This document shows, one piece after another, positions 4,866-26,462 of a stretch of 30,819 bases of DNA. Source of the stretch: a virus; the IMG/VR virus record IMGVR_UViG_3300042298_002526, positions 1 through 30,819 of that record; one strand, 5' to 3'. The stretch's first letter is position 1, and every line of letters starts with the position of its first letter. The translations under genes were made by a program, and so were the position numbers. Below the pieces are notes generated by a model, which was given only the letters and a program-made list of their open reading frames with translations, was not told the DNA's origin and did not search any database.

Positions 4866-7800
4866 TTACTTTTCCTCCTTTTCGGATTGTTTCTGGCCGT
4901 AGAACTTAGCGTAGGGGCGTAGTTTCTTGATACTATCAGGTGTTTGGCCCCTGAGAAGCTCAGCGGCTAATTTCGGGTTGGTTTGCGCTTCAACAAGGAT
5001 GTTCAAGGCAACTTTAGACGGGTCTCCTTTTGAAGCGAATCGAAGCAGCGACGAAACAGCGGTGAAGAACCTTGCCCCAGCTCCAACTTTCTCATCAAGA
5101 CCGGCAGCGATGCGTTGCAGCGCCCCGAGTGAGTTGTTCTTGTTTATGTCGGAGAGATTGCTGCCAATCGAGGTTCTGAGAGCTGTCTGTGATTGGCCTT
5201 GGGTCGTTCTTGTCGGACGAGCGAGCAGTTCGTACTGCTTGCGAATGATGTCCAAGGCTTTCATCTCCTTGGAATCTTTGCCGTACACCTTCTCCAGCAC
5301 GGCCCGCTCTCTCAATCCCTCAGTAAGGAAGTCGTTCAGCTTTCCAAAAATAGCAGCAAACTCGTCTGGCTTTACCGGCTCCGCTTTGTTGAGCGTGGTC
5401 TCAACCCGTGACTTGCTCCGCAGTTTTTCATTGAGATAGCTGCTAAGCGCATTCTTGAACCCTTCTTCAGCCTGCTTGTTGCCACGCAGAGTCGCCATGA
5501 TTTCAGAGGTCATTCCAACAGGGTCGTCGGACTTGAAAATGTTGGTGAAAGCCATTTTAGCGTCCTTGCCGAGAATCTTGTTCACAGCCATGCCTTGGAT
5601 GCGCTCCTGCTCGTTCCTAAACGCTTCCTTGGCCTGTTGCCTCTTCTCTTTTTCAATAACCGTTTCGCGCTGTTTTGCGTCGACCTTTTTTTCAGTAAGT
5701 TCAGCTTTTGCCTCGGCGGCAAGTTCACGGGCAAGTGTTTTCTCTTGCTGCGCACGCTCAACGCCAGCTTCCGCTGTACGGATGTCCGATTGAGCTTTAT
5801 CGACAGCCGCCCTTGCAGATGGAAACACTCTGGAAAAATCTCTGGCAGCCCCTGTCATGGCCCAGTCTTCCATGCTCTTGACAGTCGGCGCAGAGCTAAC
5901 TTTTTGAGAGAACATATCGACAAACCAGTTGTCGATAGCCTGCTGCGCGTCGGGGTCTCCTTTGATCGACTCCTTAAGCTGTATTAAGGATTCAAGGTCG
6001 GACGTGTAGGCGTCGATTGTTTGGCTTGGCGGCGTCTTTTTGTTGCCTTGTCCATAAATAACGCCCCAAGCAGGACCATCGAAGTACTTGCGTGCGTATT
6101 CAAAATACAGCTTGTTGGCCTTTGCAAACAGCGGAGAAGCGTTACCGGCAGTTTCTAGGTCTGCCTTAAGCGAATTTTTCACCATCCCTAGCCAGCTTCG
6201 ATGGGCGATATTTTTGGTGTCTGAAAGTTCTCCGGAAATGCTCCGGTAATCAGAATCAATGTCCTCAACCCTGTTGACCTTATTTTTGTCTGGATTCTCA
6301 ATCAGACCTTCAATCATCTTTGAGATGTGCTCTGGAATACTTCCACGTTCTCCAGCCTTCTTCCTAACCTCCTTTAACGCTTTGATGGTGTTCGCGTAGT
6401 CAACGACAAGATCACCGGTCTCCTCGCGAGCTTTTGCATACGCCTCATCGTGCAGCGCCTTTTCCTCCTTAGCGTTCCTCAGCAGCACCTGTTCAACGGT
6501 TATGCTTTGGTCCGACCGAGACCGGCTTTTCTGCGCTTGAGCAAACTGCTGACCAGCCTGCTTTAGACGCGCCGCGCTGGCTTCAAGAGCAGCATCAGCG
6601 GCAATCGCTCCCTGCTTGGCTGCATTAAAGTTGTTTCTGGACTCGGCGAGAGCATCGTTTAAGGCGCTTACCGCTTCGCGGTTGCCTTTTTCAATGGCGC
6701 TGTCTCTGGCAGCTTCAGCAGCTCTGATAAGCTTGTCGTGTTGGGCTTGGATAACGCCTTGAGCAGCCTCAATACCGGCGCCTCCCTGCGGCTGGAGCGT
6801 TGCGCCCAAATCAGAAGCAACCGCTTCGCGTGTTTGCTGGCGGATGCTGCGCAGTCCAGCATTCGTTGTTGCCAAGGCTTCCTGCAACCCAAGCAGCCCT
6901 TCGTTGCCTGAAATCTCACCGGCGAAGAACGTCGCCCCTGGGGACGTTGGGATACCCTTCTCGATTGCAGTCGCGGCCAGTTCCGCTGGTTTTTCACCGC
7001 CAGCAAACTCCTGCATCGTTTGCTCGGCACTTCTTCTTCCAGCAAGCTCGGTGCGTTGTTTGCGCGGCATCATCATTGCCGTCCCAAACTTCGTTGGGCG
7101 CGTGATAGCACCCATGATAGCGCCTTCTGCTATCTCCTGCGGTGTCGGCATTCTGCCCTGAGTTGCGTATGTTGCTGCAAACGTCGCTCCAGCGTTGGCA
7201 GCGCCTTCTATCAACGCCTCTTTACGCGCCGCTGTAACAGCGGCTGGCGATCCACGTCCAGCAATCCCTGCAATGCGCGAAGGTGACGGGTAACCAGTGG
7301 CCAGTGACGGCACAAAACTCCCAATGGTTCTTCCTATACTGGCGCCGGTTACTGCCTCATCGAACCGGCGCTGAGCCAAATCCGCTTCGGTTGGCGGGAA
7401 GATTTCTTGCTGAAGTTCTGCGGCACCTACTGCACCAGCGATACTTCCAGGAATGCTGCCAGCAAGCCCCAAAGGCGAACCAACAAAAGCTCCAGCCATA
7501 CCACCGAGTGCAGGGATTACCTGCTCTTCGGCTCCACGCGCCATTGCTCCAAAAAAGGAAGGCTTCATCTCCTGCTTGTACTTCTCCCACGCGCCGGCAA
7601 GCGTTGGCGACTGCTCTGGATTGAAGGATGAGCCTAAATCAATCGCGCCCTGCGAAACGAGGTTGTTGAAGAAGTCCCTCGTAGACCGTGAACCGGCTGC
7701 CTTCTTGAAGGACTCCACTTCCGTTGCGGTTGGAGTCTCGCCGGTCTGCGCCTGACGAAGTTCTGCAATGAGTTCCCGCGATACGTTCTTGTTCAGATTC

Positions 7801-23301: not shown

Positions 23302-23664
23302 TCAAGACGCATCTGGTTTTACCGTAACCTCCACAGCGTCAACTACTTCCCCTGTTTCGATGCCTGCTGGCGACAACCCTTCACGCAGCATTCCCGCTAC
23401 GCGTTGGCGTATTTCCGCGTCGGATAGCGTTGCGACGTTACCAGGCGCGTTGTCCGCGGCAGCCGGGTTGCGTGGCAGAACCTTGCCTAGGAGCGCACAA
23501 TAGGTGCGCGGATCCCTACGTGCTACCTCCTCGAGGTACGCGGCGCCGCCTAGCCTCTCAAAGGACAGCATCAGCGCGTCTTTGAGCGCCGTTGTCGTCT
23601 TGTTCTGTGTTCCCTTTGGTCTACCCGTGTGAATCAGGTTAGCCAACTGTGCAGGCGATGCCAT
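23302..23664 (-). CDS. probable terminase small subunit
   Basis: This 120-residue protein starts MASPAQLANLIHTGRPKGTQ. The GRPKGTQNKTT segment followed by a helix (LKDALMLSFERLGG) and AYLEEVARRDPRTYCALLGK is typical of small phage DNA-binding packaging proteins. The C-terminal half is acidic and probably mediates oligomer or large-subunit contact. I chose the ATG at 23664 because the longer frame starting at 23949 adds basic sequence read through a palindrome-rich regulatory region. It is immediately upstream of terL in the operon. P22 gp3 is longer (162 residues) and not obviously related. The small-terminase call rests on position and the GRPKG/helix pattern. Confidence 0.72.
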   Translation of the reverse strand: MASPAQLANLIHTGRPKGTQNKTTTALKDALMLSFERLGGAAYLEEVARRDPRTYCALLGKVLPRNPAAADNAPGNVATLSDAEIRQRVAGMLREGLSPAGIETGEVVDAVEVTVKPDAS

Positions 23665-23694
23665 ATCGGATATGGCTCTACTCTCTATAGAGCC
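23660..23694. promoter_or_regulatory. two overlapping dyads at the terS start
   Basis: GCCATATC-G-GATATGGC (23660-23676) is a perfect dyad with 8-bp arms that includes the small terminase start codon. GGCTCTA and TAGAGCC (23674-23694) form a second dyad with 7-bp arms overlapping the first. Together they could be a tandem operator or an mRNA structure that hides the start codon. They head the late minus-strand operon. Confidence 0.6.
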
Positions 23695-23821
23695 TGATTC
23701 AAGATTCCCTTTCCTTCTGATACGCAAATTTTGCGCATTTCCCACTTGCCAACCCTCACGCATTGCGCCAACCTTGCACCAAGCTTGCAAGACGCAAGCA
23801 AGACGAAAACCCCGCAAACCC

Positions 23822-23977
23822 ATGAAACACAACCTCTTATCCCTCGGATTCCTCACCCTCACCGCTGTCGACACCCTCGGCCTCTCCCAGCTCACGCTGA
23901 CGCTCCCTGAAGCGCTCTGCGTTATGCTCCTTTTTCTTTGGAGCACCATCTTGCTTTGGCGTTCACTCCTTTCCTAA
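23822..23977 (+). CDS. small two-helix membrane protein
   Basis: This 51-residue protein starts MKHNLLSLGFLTLTAVDTLG and has two hydrophobic stretches (about residues 4-20 and 29-49, the second around LCVMLLFLWSTILLW). It is the first gene of the plus-strand accessory operon, divergent from the terminase operon and 44 bp before ardA. The longer frame starting at 23672 runs through the regulatory dyads and is not credible. There is no Shine-Dalgarno, but the leader is A/C-rich like the genes that follow. It is unrecognised; an envelope-directed exclusion or anti-defence role is only a guess from its neighbours. Confidence 0.55.
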   Translation: MKHNLLSLGFLTLTAVDTLGLSQLTLTLPEALCVMLLFLWSTILLWRSLLS

Positions 23978-24021
23978 ACCTCTTTCCCTGAGTCAGTAAA
24001 ACCAAACCAAACCAAAACAAA

Positions 24022-24552
24022 ATGAACACGAACACAACCGAAACAACAGAAACCGTTCCCGCCGTGTACGTTGGCACCTACGCCAAATATAACTCCGGAT
24101 CCATAAAAGGAGCGTGGATTAAGCTGGAAGGACACACGCCCGAAACCTTTCACGCTGCCTGCCTAGAGCTCCATTCGGACGAGTCAGACCCCGAACTTAT
24201 GTTCCAAGACTTCGAAGGCTTCCCCCGTGCCTTTTATGGCGAAAGCTATTTGTCTCCAGCCCTTTGGGACTGGATTGAATGCACTGAAGAAGAGAAAGAG
24301 ATTTGGGCCGCGTACGTTGAGGTTTTTGGTTACTCGTTTGACGAATCCTCGCTCGGCCATGCACAAGAAGCTTTCGCTGGTCAGTTTAACTCAACAGCAG
24401 ATTTCGCCGAAGAGACAAGCGCAGAATGCTATGACCTAGACTCAATCCCCTCTCACCTAATGGCTTGTATCGATTGGCAGCACGTCTGGAACTCCTATTT
24501 TCGCTTCGACTTCGTCGAACAGGATGGCTTTTTCTTCAATAGAAATCACTAA
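24022..24552 (+). CDS. ardA: ArdA-family anti-restriction protein
   Basis: This 176-residue acidic protein matches the ArdA family: N-terminal PAVYVGTYAKYNSGSIKGAW, then ACLELHSDESDPELMFQDFE, a mid-region AYVEVFGYSFDESS, and a C-terminal IDWQHVWNSYFRFDFVEQDG. ArdA folds as an elongated dimer mimicking bent B-form DNA and inhibits type I restriction (and often modification) enzymes. The length is normal for the family and the net charge is clearly acidic, as expected for DNA mimicry. Three tandem AAACC pentamers lie just before the ATG and there is no Shine-Dalgarno. It is followed by a GP88-family gene in a probable operon. Early expression would protect incoming DNA. Confidence 0.9.
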   Translation: MNTNTTETTETVPAVYVGTYAKYNSGSIKGAWIKLEGHTPETFHAACLELHSDESDPELMFQDFEGFPRAFYGESYLSPALWDWIECTEEEKEIWAAYVEVFGYSFDESSLGHAQEAFAGQFNSTADFAEETSAECYDLDSIPSHLMACIDWQHVWNSYFRFDFVEQDGFFFNRNH

Positions 24553-24581
24553 GCGCTAACCCTTTACACTACCCAAAAAAA

Positions 24582-25310
24582 ATGAATCTACTCGGTATTT
24601 CCTCAGCAAAAACCGAAAAAGGTGAAGCTTTAAATTTCCTTACTGGAATCCTCTATCTCGCCCCCCACACCCTATCAGGTTCTGGCAACGTATGCCCATG
24701 GGCCGCTTCATGCAAAAAAGGTTGTCTAAACTCCGCAGGCAAAGGTGCTTTCTCCAACGTCCAAAAGGCGCGCATTGCCAAGACCCGCCTATTTTTCTCA
24801 GACCGTGACGCATTCATGGAGACCTTGTACCTTGATTGCAAGGCCTTGATATCCAAAGCGAAGCGCGCTGGAATGCTCCCTTGCATTAGGCTCAACGGAA
24901 CAAGCGATTTGGCGTTCCACCGCCTGCTGGTACCATCTAAAGGCGAGACGCTTATGCAGTGTTTCCCTTCTGTTCCCTTCTACGACTATTCCAAGTCCGT
25001 CAAAAAGGCATTGGACAACGCAAAAGGACTTCACCCTCAAAACTATACCGTTGTCTTTTCGCGTGATTCCGCCGCAAACGAAAACGAATGCCAACAAGTT
25101 CTTTCCGCTGGTGGCAACGTCGCCGTCGTTTTTCGCGATTCTCTCCCGCCTGTTTTCTGGCATCGCCCCGTTCTCAACGGCGATGCTACGGACCTTCGGT
25201 TTCTCGACCGCCGCGCGCGAGCTGGTCGATCTGGTTACGTTGTCGGACTCAAAGCCAAAGGACAAGCCAAGCGGGACCGGAGCGGCTTTGTTGTCGACTC
25301 AGCAAACTAA
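24582..25310 (+). CDS. GP88-family phage protein
   Basis: This 242-residue protein matches, from memory, the family named after phage gene product 88. Diagnostic segments are KTEKGEALNFLTGILYLAPH, NVCPWAASCKKGCLNSAGKG, NVQKARIAKTRLFFSDRDAF, an IRLNGTSDLAFH motif, FPSVPFYDYSK and the C-terminal GDATDLRFLDRRA...SGYVVGLKAKGQA. The cysteines (C-x5-C-x3-C) could bind a metal or Fe-S cluster, but this is unproven. The family is widespread in phages and its function is unknown to me. Its position directly after ardA suggests an early, host-interaction role. The leader (ACACTACCCAAAAAAA) is A-rich without a Shine-Dalgarno. The length is complete. Confidence 0.85.
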   Translation: MNLLGISSAKTEKGEALNFLTGILYLAPHTLSGSGNVCPWAASCKKGCLNSAGKGAFSNVQKARIAKTRLFFSDRDAFMETLYLDCKALISKAKRAGMLPCIRLNGTSDLAFHRLLVPSKGETLMQCFPSVPFYDYSKSVKKALDNAKGLHPQNYTVVFSRDSAANENECQQVLSAGGNVAVVFRDSLPPVFWHRPVLNGDATDLRFLDRRARAGRSGYVVGLKAKGQAKRDRSGFVVDSAN

Positions 25311-25322
25311 CCAACCGCACCC

Positions 25323-25514
25323 ATGCAAACCTTTCACGTTTACGTCGATTCCCCCACCGGCGCTTATCTCGGAACCATCACTGCCGATTCTCTCGAGTCT
25401 GCGCAGACTGCAGTCAACCGTGCACTGATTATGCCTTGCAAAGTCCGAACCTGTCCACCCCCACCCACTGACGCTTGGCGGGTTGGCTCTGACGGCCGCC
25501 TGTACCGGCACTGA
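25323..25514 (+). CDS. small hypothetical protein
   Basis: This 63-residue protein starts MQTFHVYVDSPTGAYLGTIT, continues with a helix (ADSLESAQTAVNRAL) and ends DAWRVGSDGRLYRH. The beta-beta-alpha start and aromatic end resemble very small phage regulatory or inhibitor proteins, but no family is recognised. It begins 12 bp after the GP88 gene and is followed by a strong terminator, so it is the last gene of this operon. Two cysteines (CKVRTC) lie in the middle. Confidence 0.6.
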   Translation: MQTFHVYVDSPTGAYLGTITADSLESAQTAVNRALIMPCKVRTCPPPPTDAWRVGSDGRLYRH

Positions 25515-25536: not shown

Positions 25537-25567
25537 GGCCGCGTCTCTCACGAGATGCGGCCTTTTT
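25537..25567 (+). terminator. strong intrinsic terminator
   Basis: GGCCGCGTCTC pairs with GAGATGCGGCC (one G-T pair) around a TCAC loop and is followed by TTTTT. It lies 22 bp after the last gene of the plus-strand accessory operon and should end its transcript. Confidence 0.9.
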
Positions 25568-26219: not shown

Positions 26220-26462
26220 TTACTCCACGATGTACCTACCCTGAACTATTCGGTACGCCCTCTCAAACACGTCTTTGGGACTCCAAGAGATGTAGCCCTT
26301 GAAGTCGGGGTGGTTTGCTTCGCCGCCGTCCGTGTACTCGACGAGATAGCCTTCTCTTACCGGATTCTCGTTTGGTGGCATTGTCCAGCCGCGCAGGTCG
26401 TTGTACTCGCCAAGCGTCATTGGCTTGGCGTTGATGATTTTGGTTCCGATGTAGGTATTCAT
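26220..26462 (-). CDS. small conserved phage protein
   Basis: This 80-residue protein starts MNTYIGTKIINAKPMTLGEY, continues NDLRGWTMPPNENP, then EGYLVEYTDGG and GYISWSPKDVFERAYR. This layout (MNTYxGTKxxxAxPMTxGxYNxxRGW ... GYLVEYxDG ... YISWSPKxVFExAY) is well known to me from many phages and prophages, where the protein is unassigned. It is the last gene of the minus-strand early operon. The leader is A-rich (ACAACAAAAAAAAAC) with no close Shine-Dalgarno. A 117-bp gap without a gene lies upstream. Confidence 0.88.
   Translation of the reverse strand: MNTYIGTKIINAKPMTLGEYNDLRGWTMPPNENPVREGYLVEYTDGGEANHPDFKGYISWSPKDVFERAYRIVQGRYIVE

Follow-up and report, generated by a model that had tools for sequence, protein, structure and literature searches.

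A putative moron-like accessory locus with exchangeable genes, among them ArdA and a GP88-family protein, in a phage with a P22-type portal

Lambdoid morons are accessory loci of tailed phages, and a block of four genes in a phage genome from an environmental group is best filed as a moron-like accessory locus of its own. ArdA is the known gene in the block and is joined by fixed ends, common leaders, and a constant peptide tail. The genes vary among close relatives, are opposed to the flanking operons, and have their own terminator. The reading that we find fairly probable is that the block represents one variant of a locus whose genes are exchangeable, in which ArdA would act as a DNA mimic and GP88 as a radical-SAM-like iron-sulfur enzyme.

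The gene block and its borders

The window, by which we mean the whole stretch of 30,819 nucleotides that was analyzed, is a contig of 30.8 kb from IMG/VR, and the phage that it belongs to has a P22-type portal. The minus strand carries the portal, coat, tail, tailspike, endolysin-like, terminase, RusA, and primase/helicase genes, and the nearest relatives of the portal are 65% identical (an uncultured phage) and 48% identical (Pseudomonas phage PfAn1). The four-gene block (23822-25514) lies on the plus strand between the small terminase and the recombination genes, and runs opposite to the packaging genes on one side and to the replication/recombination genes on the other. The left border is the small terminase (23302-23664, minus strand), whose reading frame continues to 23949, with the likely start an ATG at 23664. 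The resulting 215-aa minus-strand frame, which overlaps the first gene of the block, is an over-extended small terminase: tblastn in the sister phages splits near 23664, and past that point there is no conservation at the protein level. Across the variable stretch from the small terminase lies an 80-aa phage-family protein (26220-26462, minus strand; phrog_872).

The block opens with a 51-aa membrane protein with two helices (23822-23977), followed by ArdA (24022-24552), the GP88-family protein (24582-25310), and a 63-aa protein (25323-25514), all on the plus strand. Neither the 51-aa nor the 63-aa frame matches a Pfam or PHROGs family, PADLOC gives no match for the four proteins, and no tRNA genes were found. 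All four frames are nonetheless genes under purifying selection, not chance reading frames: the median pairwise dN/dS in the sister phages is low (GP88 0.11, ArdA 0.12, the 51-aa protein 0.18, and the 63-aa protein 0.12). An intrinsic terminator of 11 pairs and a T run follows at 25537-25562 on the plus strand. Over 11 relatives, 97.5% of the cells in its stem are paired, with 12 double changes, and the pairing drops to 31-58% when the partner is slid as a control. The terminator can be taken as real because the stem covaries in the relatives. The initial annotation had described a plus-strand unit of four genes closed by a terminator, and the positions of the frames, the Pfam matches, the dN/dS values, and the covarying stem bear this out. 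That the unit is also an operon is probable from the gene order, the short gaps, and the terminator. The divergent intergenic stretch (23665-23821) should hold the cassette promoter, given its position between two divergent genes, and the block would be expressed from this promoter of its own. No promoter stands out there, as a consensus scan finds 2 promoter-like sites where 1.5 are expected, none of them above chance.

The ArdA gene codes for a genuine member of the anti-restriction family. The protein scores 78.4 bits against PF07275 (cut-off 27), the match spans 136 of the 155 positions of the family, and it also falls in phrog_2059. It is strongly acidic, with a net charge of -25 over 176 aa and a pI of 4.2, as expected of a predicted DNA mimic. 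The charge and the score both uphold the family assignment proposed earlier, and the family gives good support to a role as an inhibitor of type I restriction. Most likely, the protein would mimic DNA and thereby block type I restriction enzymes. It is 55-84% identical to its nearest viral relatives, compared to 25-36% for the ArdA-like proteins of isolated phages.

Cassette variation and exchange among sister phages

The relatives of this phage were found via GP88 and ArdA and, to counter the bias of such a search, via the large terminase, with four loci from the GP88/ArdA search added. In phages whose terminases are mostly 95-100% identical (one is at 78%), there are 25 distinct cassettes at this site, each running from the small terminase to the tailed last gene. 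The layout is common to them, with a membrane mini-protein near the start, the tailed protein last, and middle genes that alternate. Among the middle genes, ArdA occurs in 12 of the 25 cassettes, GP88 in 16, and a clamp-like protein of 183 aa, homologous to a processivity factor of DNA polymerase (phrog_947, E 4.5e-8), in 4. The others are small (61 to 116 aa), a number of these proteins are strongly acidic (net -10 to -18), and two of the acidic proteins belong to phrog_9974. GP88 and the clamp-like protein never occur together in the 25 cassettes (p = 0.01), and ArdA and GP88 share a cassette in 5 of 25, fewer than chance (Fisher p = 0.04 towards avoidance), both p values being optimistic since the related phages are not fully independent.

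The clamp-like protein takes the slot of GP88 and is also seen in phages with a 70-78% identical terminase (L250, L252, L280, L284, and L301 for the two together). In or beside cassette positions of L270, L275, L284, and L301 are proteins of 113-116 aa from phrog_9974, with net charges of -15 to -18, which are possible DNA mimics. A second phage group, whose terminase is 26% identical, has a similar plus-strand cassette in a comparable position, with members of the same gene pool in it: ArdA, a 201-aa relative of GP88 that occupies the corresponding place, and two further small families.

The ends of the cassette are held by particular genes. A homologue or analogue of the 51-aa protein opens nearly all cassettes, sometimes preceded by one or two small genes, and these membrane mini-proteins are of several sequence types. 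In seven diverged copies of the 51-aa protein, there is an invariant Asp in the first hydrophobic stretch and an invariant Glu ahead of the second. The last gene ends in the constant C-terminal tail RVG-x-DG-x-LYRH, which sits on at least three unrelated bodies: one of 63-69 aa that contains a proline linker and, unrelated to it, one of 69 aa (L053, 3264-3473) and one of 116 aa (L256, reverse complement, 6079-6429). In the window, the tail reads RVGSDGRLYRH (codons 25479-25511, plus strand). Across 23 distinct tails, the third codon positions vary at 11 of 11 and the second positions at only 2, so selection keeps the tail peptide and not the DNA; a DNA-level anchor as the cause of the constant tail is rejected for the same reason. 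A scan of all of IMG/VR finds the tail in 33 contigs, nearly all of them already known members of this phage group. The 25 cassettes were chosen by their tail, so its presence there proves nothing alone, and the more telling count is that every one of the 20 contigs reaching across the site, from the small terminase to orf122 beyond it, has the tail. The simplest reading of a constant tail on differing bodies is that they share a binding partner, and the tail is an easily tested sign of such a partner.

The genes of the cassette also share the sequences that precede them. An A/C-only leader lies before ArdA (24002-24021, plus strand), and similar leaders precede other cassette genes (24562-24581 and 25303-25322). 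Over 100 cassette starts, G makes up 0-9% at each position from -20 to -1, and there is one Shine-Dalgarno-like site. The A/C type, in which AAACC repeats are frequent, precedes nearly every cassette gene. In the second phage group, the leader AACACACTACAAAC precedes both ArdA and the GP88 relative (L168-L209). The leaders of other genes in the window have 20% G versus 5% in the cassette, some with Shine-Dalgarno sites. Two small minus-strand genes near the block have A/C-type leaders as well.

The synonymous divergence of the cassette tells of its history. For the same phage pairs, GP88 has a median dS of 1.49, the last gene 1.42, ArdA 1.17, and the membrane protein 0.62, compared to 0.26-0.41 for the terminase, 0.48 for the portal, and 0.25 for RusA, which lies just outside the block. 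For GP88, ArdA, and the last gene, dS exceeds that of the terminase in 96-98% of the pairs. Because the cassette values are so far above those of the terminase in the same pairs, the modules are exchanged and do not just drift fast, and therefore the cassette genes are older lineages that recombination has carried from phage to phage. As a hotspot for the swapping of small genes, the site behaves as expected of an arms-race locus. Exchange would use homologous recombination in the conserved flanks, and the A/C-rich leaders common to the cassette genes may perhaps also serve recombination. The swapped genes would counter varying host defenses or take over host functions. As a defined and repeatedly swapped source of small phage genes, the site lends itself to defense assays.

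The GP88 family and its predicted fold

GP88 matches PF17338, the family of gene 88 of mycobacteriophage L5, with 130.9 bits (cut-off 24.4) over positions 15-229 of 230. The match is near full-length, the 242-aa protein is 46% identical to marine phage copies, and it shows no difference in kind from the family. The family is found in 153 phage records, mostly of mycobacteriophages and also of Pelagibacter and rhizobial phages, and on one plasmid. A search of 397 genomes of one bacterial order returned one strong match, the centre itself, so GP88 is mainly phage-borne, and the idea that it is a widespread bacterial gene is rejected. In the phages inspected, it has an early-end position in the genome: it is gene 1 of HMO-2011, autographivirids carry it near the start (third gene of HTVC120P, second of Lo5R7ANS), and in the cluster A mycobacteriophage Nyxis it is the second gene counted from the right end. 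Searches of the literature with phrases naming the family gave nothing, and the top ranks for "gp88" were taken mostly by progranulin or by genes that carry this number in other phages. In a mycobacteriophage toxicity screen, "gp88" is a plain gene number. In one sister locus (L273, reverse complement, 5089-5702), GP88 is split over two frames, by possible decay or assembly error.

In an alignment of 41 sequences, three cysteines (C38, C44, and C48) are invariant with the spacing CX5-7CX3C, and the motifs R-x-N-x-x-SD, YDY-x-K, GD-x-x-D, and LKAKG-x-AK are also conserved. In the AlphaFold2 model (pLDDT 86.8), the first main strand is followed by the loop that holds the cysteines. A sequence search found no solved structure for the protein, and Foldseek with the model gave no PDB match at E <= 0.001. 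When the Foldseek candidates are re-aligned, radical-SAM enzymes come out on top (NifB with a Z of 6.2, QueE 5.9, TYW1 5.7, and viperin 5.6). TigE and DesII are likewise among the top eight rows, and unrelated TIM barrels start at Z 4.7. All of these scores are below 8, where a match can mean a common fold only. A chain of profile matches also runs from GP88 through its 201-aa relative to DUF5131 (P 2e-4 and 3e-4) and then, by way of the cysteine motif of DUF5131, to radical SAM (P 6e-3). The direct homology of GP88 and DUF5131 is rejected, as its P of 0.087 is not significant alone. GP88 resembles radical-SAM enzymes and DUF5131 (PF07505) in its partial TIM barrel, as predicted by the model, in three cysteines after strand 1, and in the way its motifs follow one another (TSD ahead of YTK or LTK). 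GP88 differs from them in its cysteine spacing and in having no significant direct profile match; because the canonical CX3CX2C motif is absent from the 41 sequences, it is not filed as a radical-SAM member.

The model and the profiles make it reasonably probable that GP88 works like a radical-SAM enzyme. It is most likely a partial TIM barrel, whose three cysteines would bind an iron-sulfur cluster, and early in infection it would modify a molecule of the host or of the phage. A rather unlikely alternative is that GP88 is a zinc- or nucleic acid-binding TIM barrel of unrelated function with structural cysteines. The noncanonical spacing would fit this, as would the basic character of the protein (pI 9.7), the weak direct match to PF04055 (P 0.06), and the first Foldseek rows, which are nonsignificant matches to a sugar epimerase and to an AP endonuclease. 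It sits less well with the fact that the best structural alignments are all to radical-SAM enzymes, and that the 201-aa relative (L061, L062, L065, and L168-L209) has a CX2C-Tyr motif like that of DUF5131 and a second, C-terminal cysteine cluster. The structure search with this relative gives a weaker picture, with radical-SAM matches mixed with other barrels. For a family in more than 150 sequenced phage records, the enzyme-like reading provides a testable hypothesis.

Anti-defense, host takeover, and known accessory loci

Whether the company of ArdA tells us anything about the other genes was addressed through the neighbors of GP88. In 27 unrelated contigs, 122 neighbors fall into 78 PHROGs and 18 Pfam families, and no anti-restriction family is present among the 18 Pfam families or the 25 of the 78 PHROGs listed. 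Among the families listed, the recognizable neighbors comprise homing endonucleases, a small number of genes for replication, lysis, or tails, and rIIA/rIIB, the RIIA/RIIB-like genes being seen close to GP88 in a few unrelated contigs. Replication and structural genes do not dominate these neighborhoods, as most neighbors are unknown. ArdA is absent from all 39 other GP88-bearing viral contigs, many of which are fragments, and together with the co-occurrence below chance in the cassettes, this leads us to reject a functional pair of ArdA and GP88. An enrichment of known anti-defense genes around GP88, for which the initial annotation proposed a survey, is not seen in the 122 neighbors, for the families listed. 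Its suggestion that the unknown genes are anti-defense candidates survives in part: the compact accessory unit and the hotspot for swapping small genes speak for it, while the company of ArdA fails as a marker for GP88. Guilt by association is a weak argument for GP88 as an anti-defense gene, and exchange at the site a suggestive one for the locus as a whole. The 51-aa protein, GP88, and the 63-aa protein are unproven candidates for such roles, and ArdA alone is recognized.

Two broader explanations of the block compete with the favored one. The block could be a true anti-defense island, in which every gene, including GP88 and both small proteins, inhibits a defense or excludes other phages. 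The presence of ArdA, the documented clustering of anti-defense genes (PMC7648647), the rapid exchange of modules, and the very acidic, DNA mimic-like alternates would all suit an island. It is somewhat doubtful, since the neighbors of GP88 in unrelated phages, for the families listed, include no anti-restriction family, ArdA and GP88 tend towards mutual avoidance, and one alternate in the slot of GP88 resembles a DNA polymerase clamp. This clamp-like protein argues instead for a host-takeover or metabolic cassette, in which ArdA is one item and GP88, the clamp-like protein, and the small genes tune replication, RNA modification, or the nucleotide pools, their variation following the host strain and not its defenses. 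The nearest folds of GP88, which include the tRNA- or nucleotide-modifying radical-SAM enzymes TYW1, QueE, and viperin, and its early-gene position in other phages point the same way. With ArdA present and a turnover typical of arms-race loci, we regard such a cassette as a tentative possibility, less probable than the moron-like reading. A bolder and quite improbable proposal is that of a locus into which genes are plugged one by one. Here, interchangeable reading frames, each with an A/C-only leader serving both Shine-Dalgarno-free translation and recombination, would be held between the membrane hairpin and a tailed end protein that uses its constant C-terminal peptide to dock differing bodies on a single target, and GP88 would be a radical-SAM enzyme for counter-defense or host takeover.

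Anti-defense genes cluster on mobile elements (PMC7648647), and this locus resembles such islands in having ArdA amid small unknowns and shuffled clusters with fixed partners. It differs from them in that no second recognized anti-defense gene is among the scanned cassette genes and in that ArdA is in only 12 of the 25 cassettes. The closer likeness is to the morons of tailed phages and the hotspots of P2 and P4 (PMC9122126), where small genes also oppose the flanking operons, are closed by a terminator, and vary between close relatives. Unlike in those loci, specific genes hold the ends, the inner genes share an A/C-only type of leader, and the body of the last gene's product changes while its peptide tail stays constant. 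The place of the locus is also its own, in a little-known group of environmental phages, with the small terminase on one side and the genes for recombination on the other.
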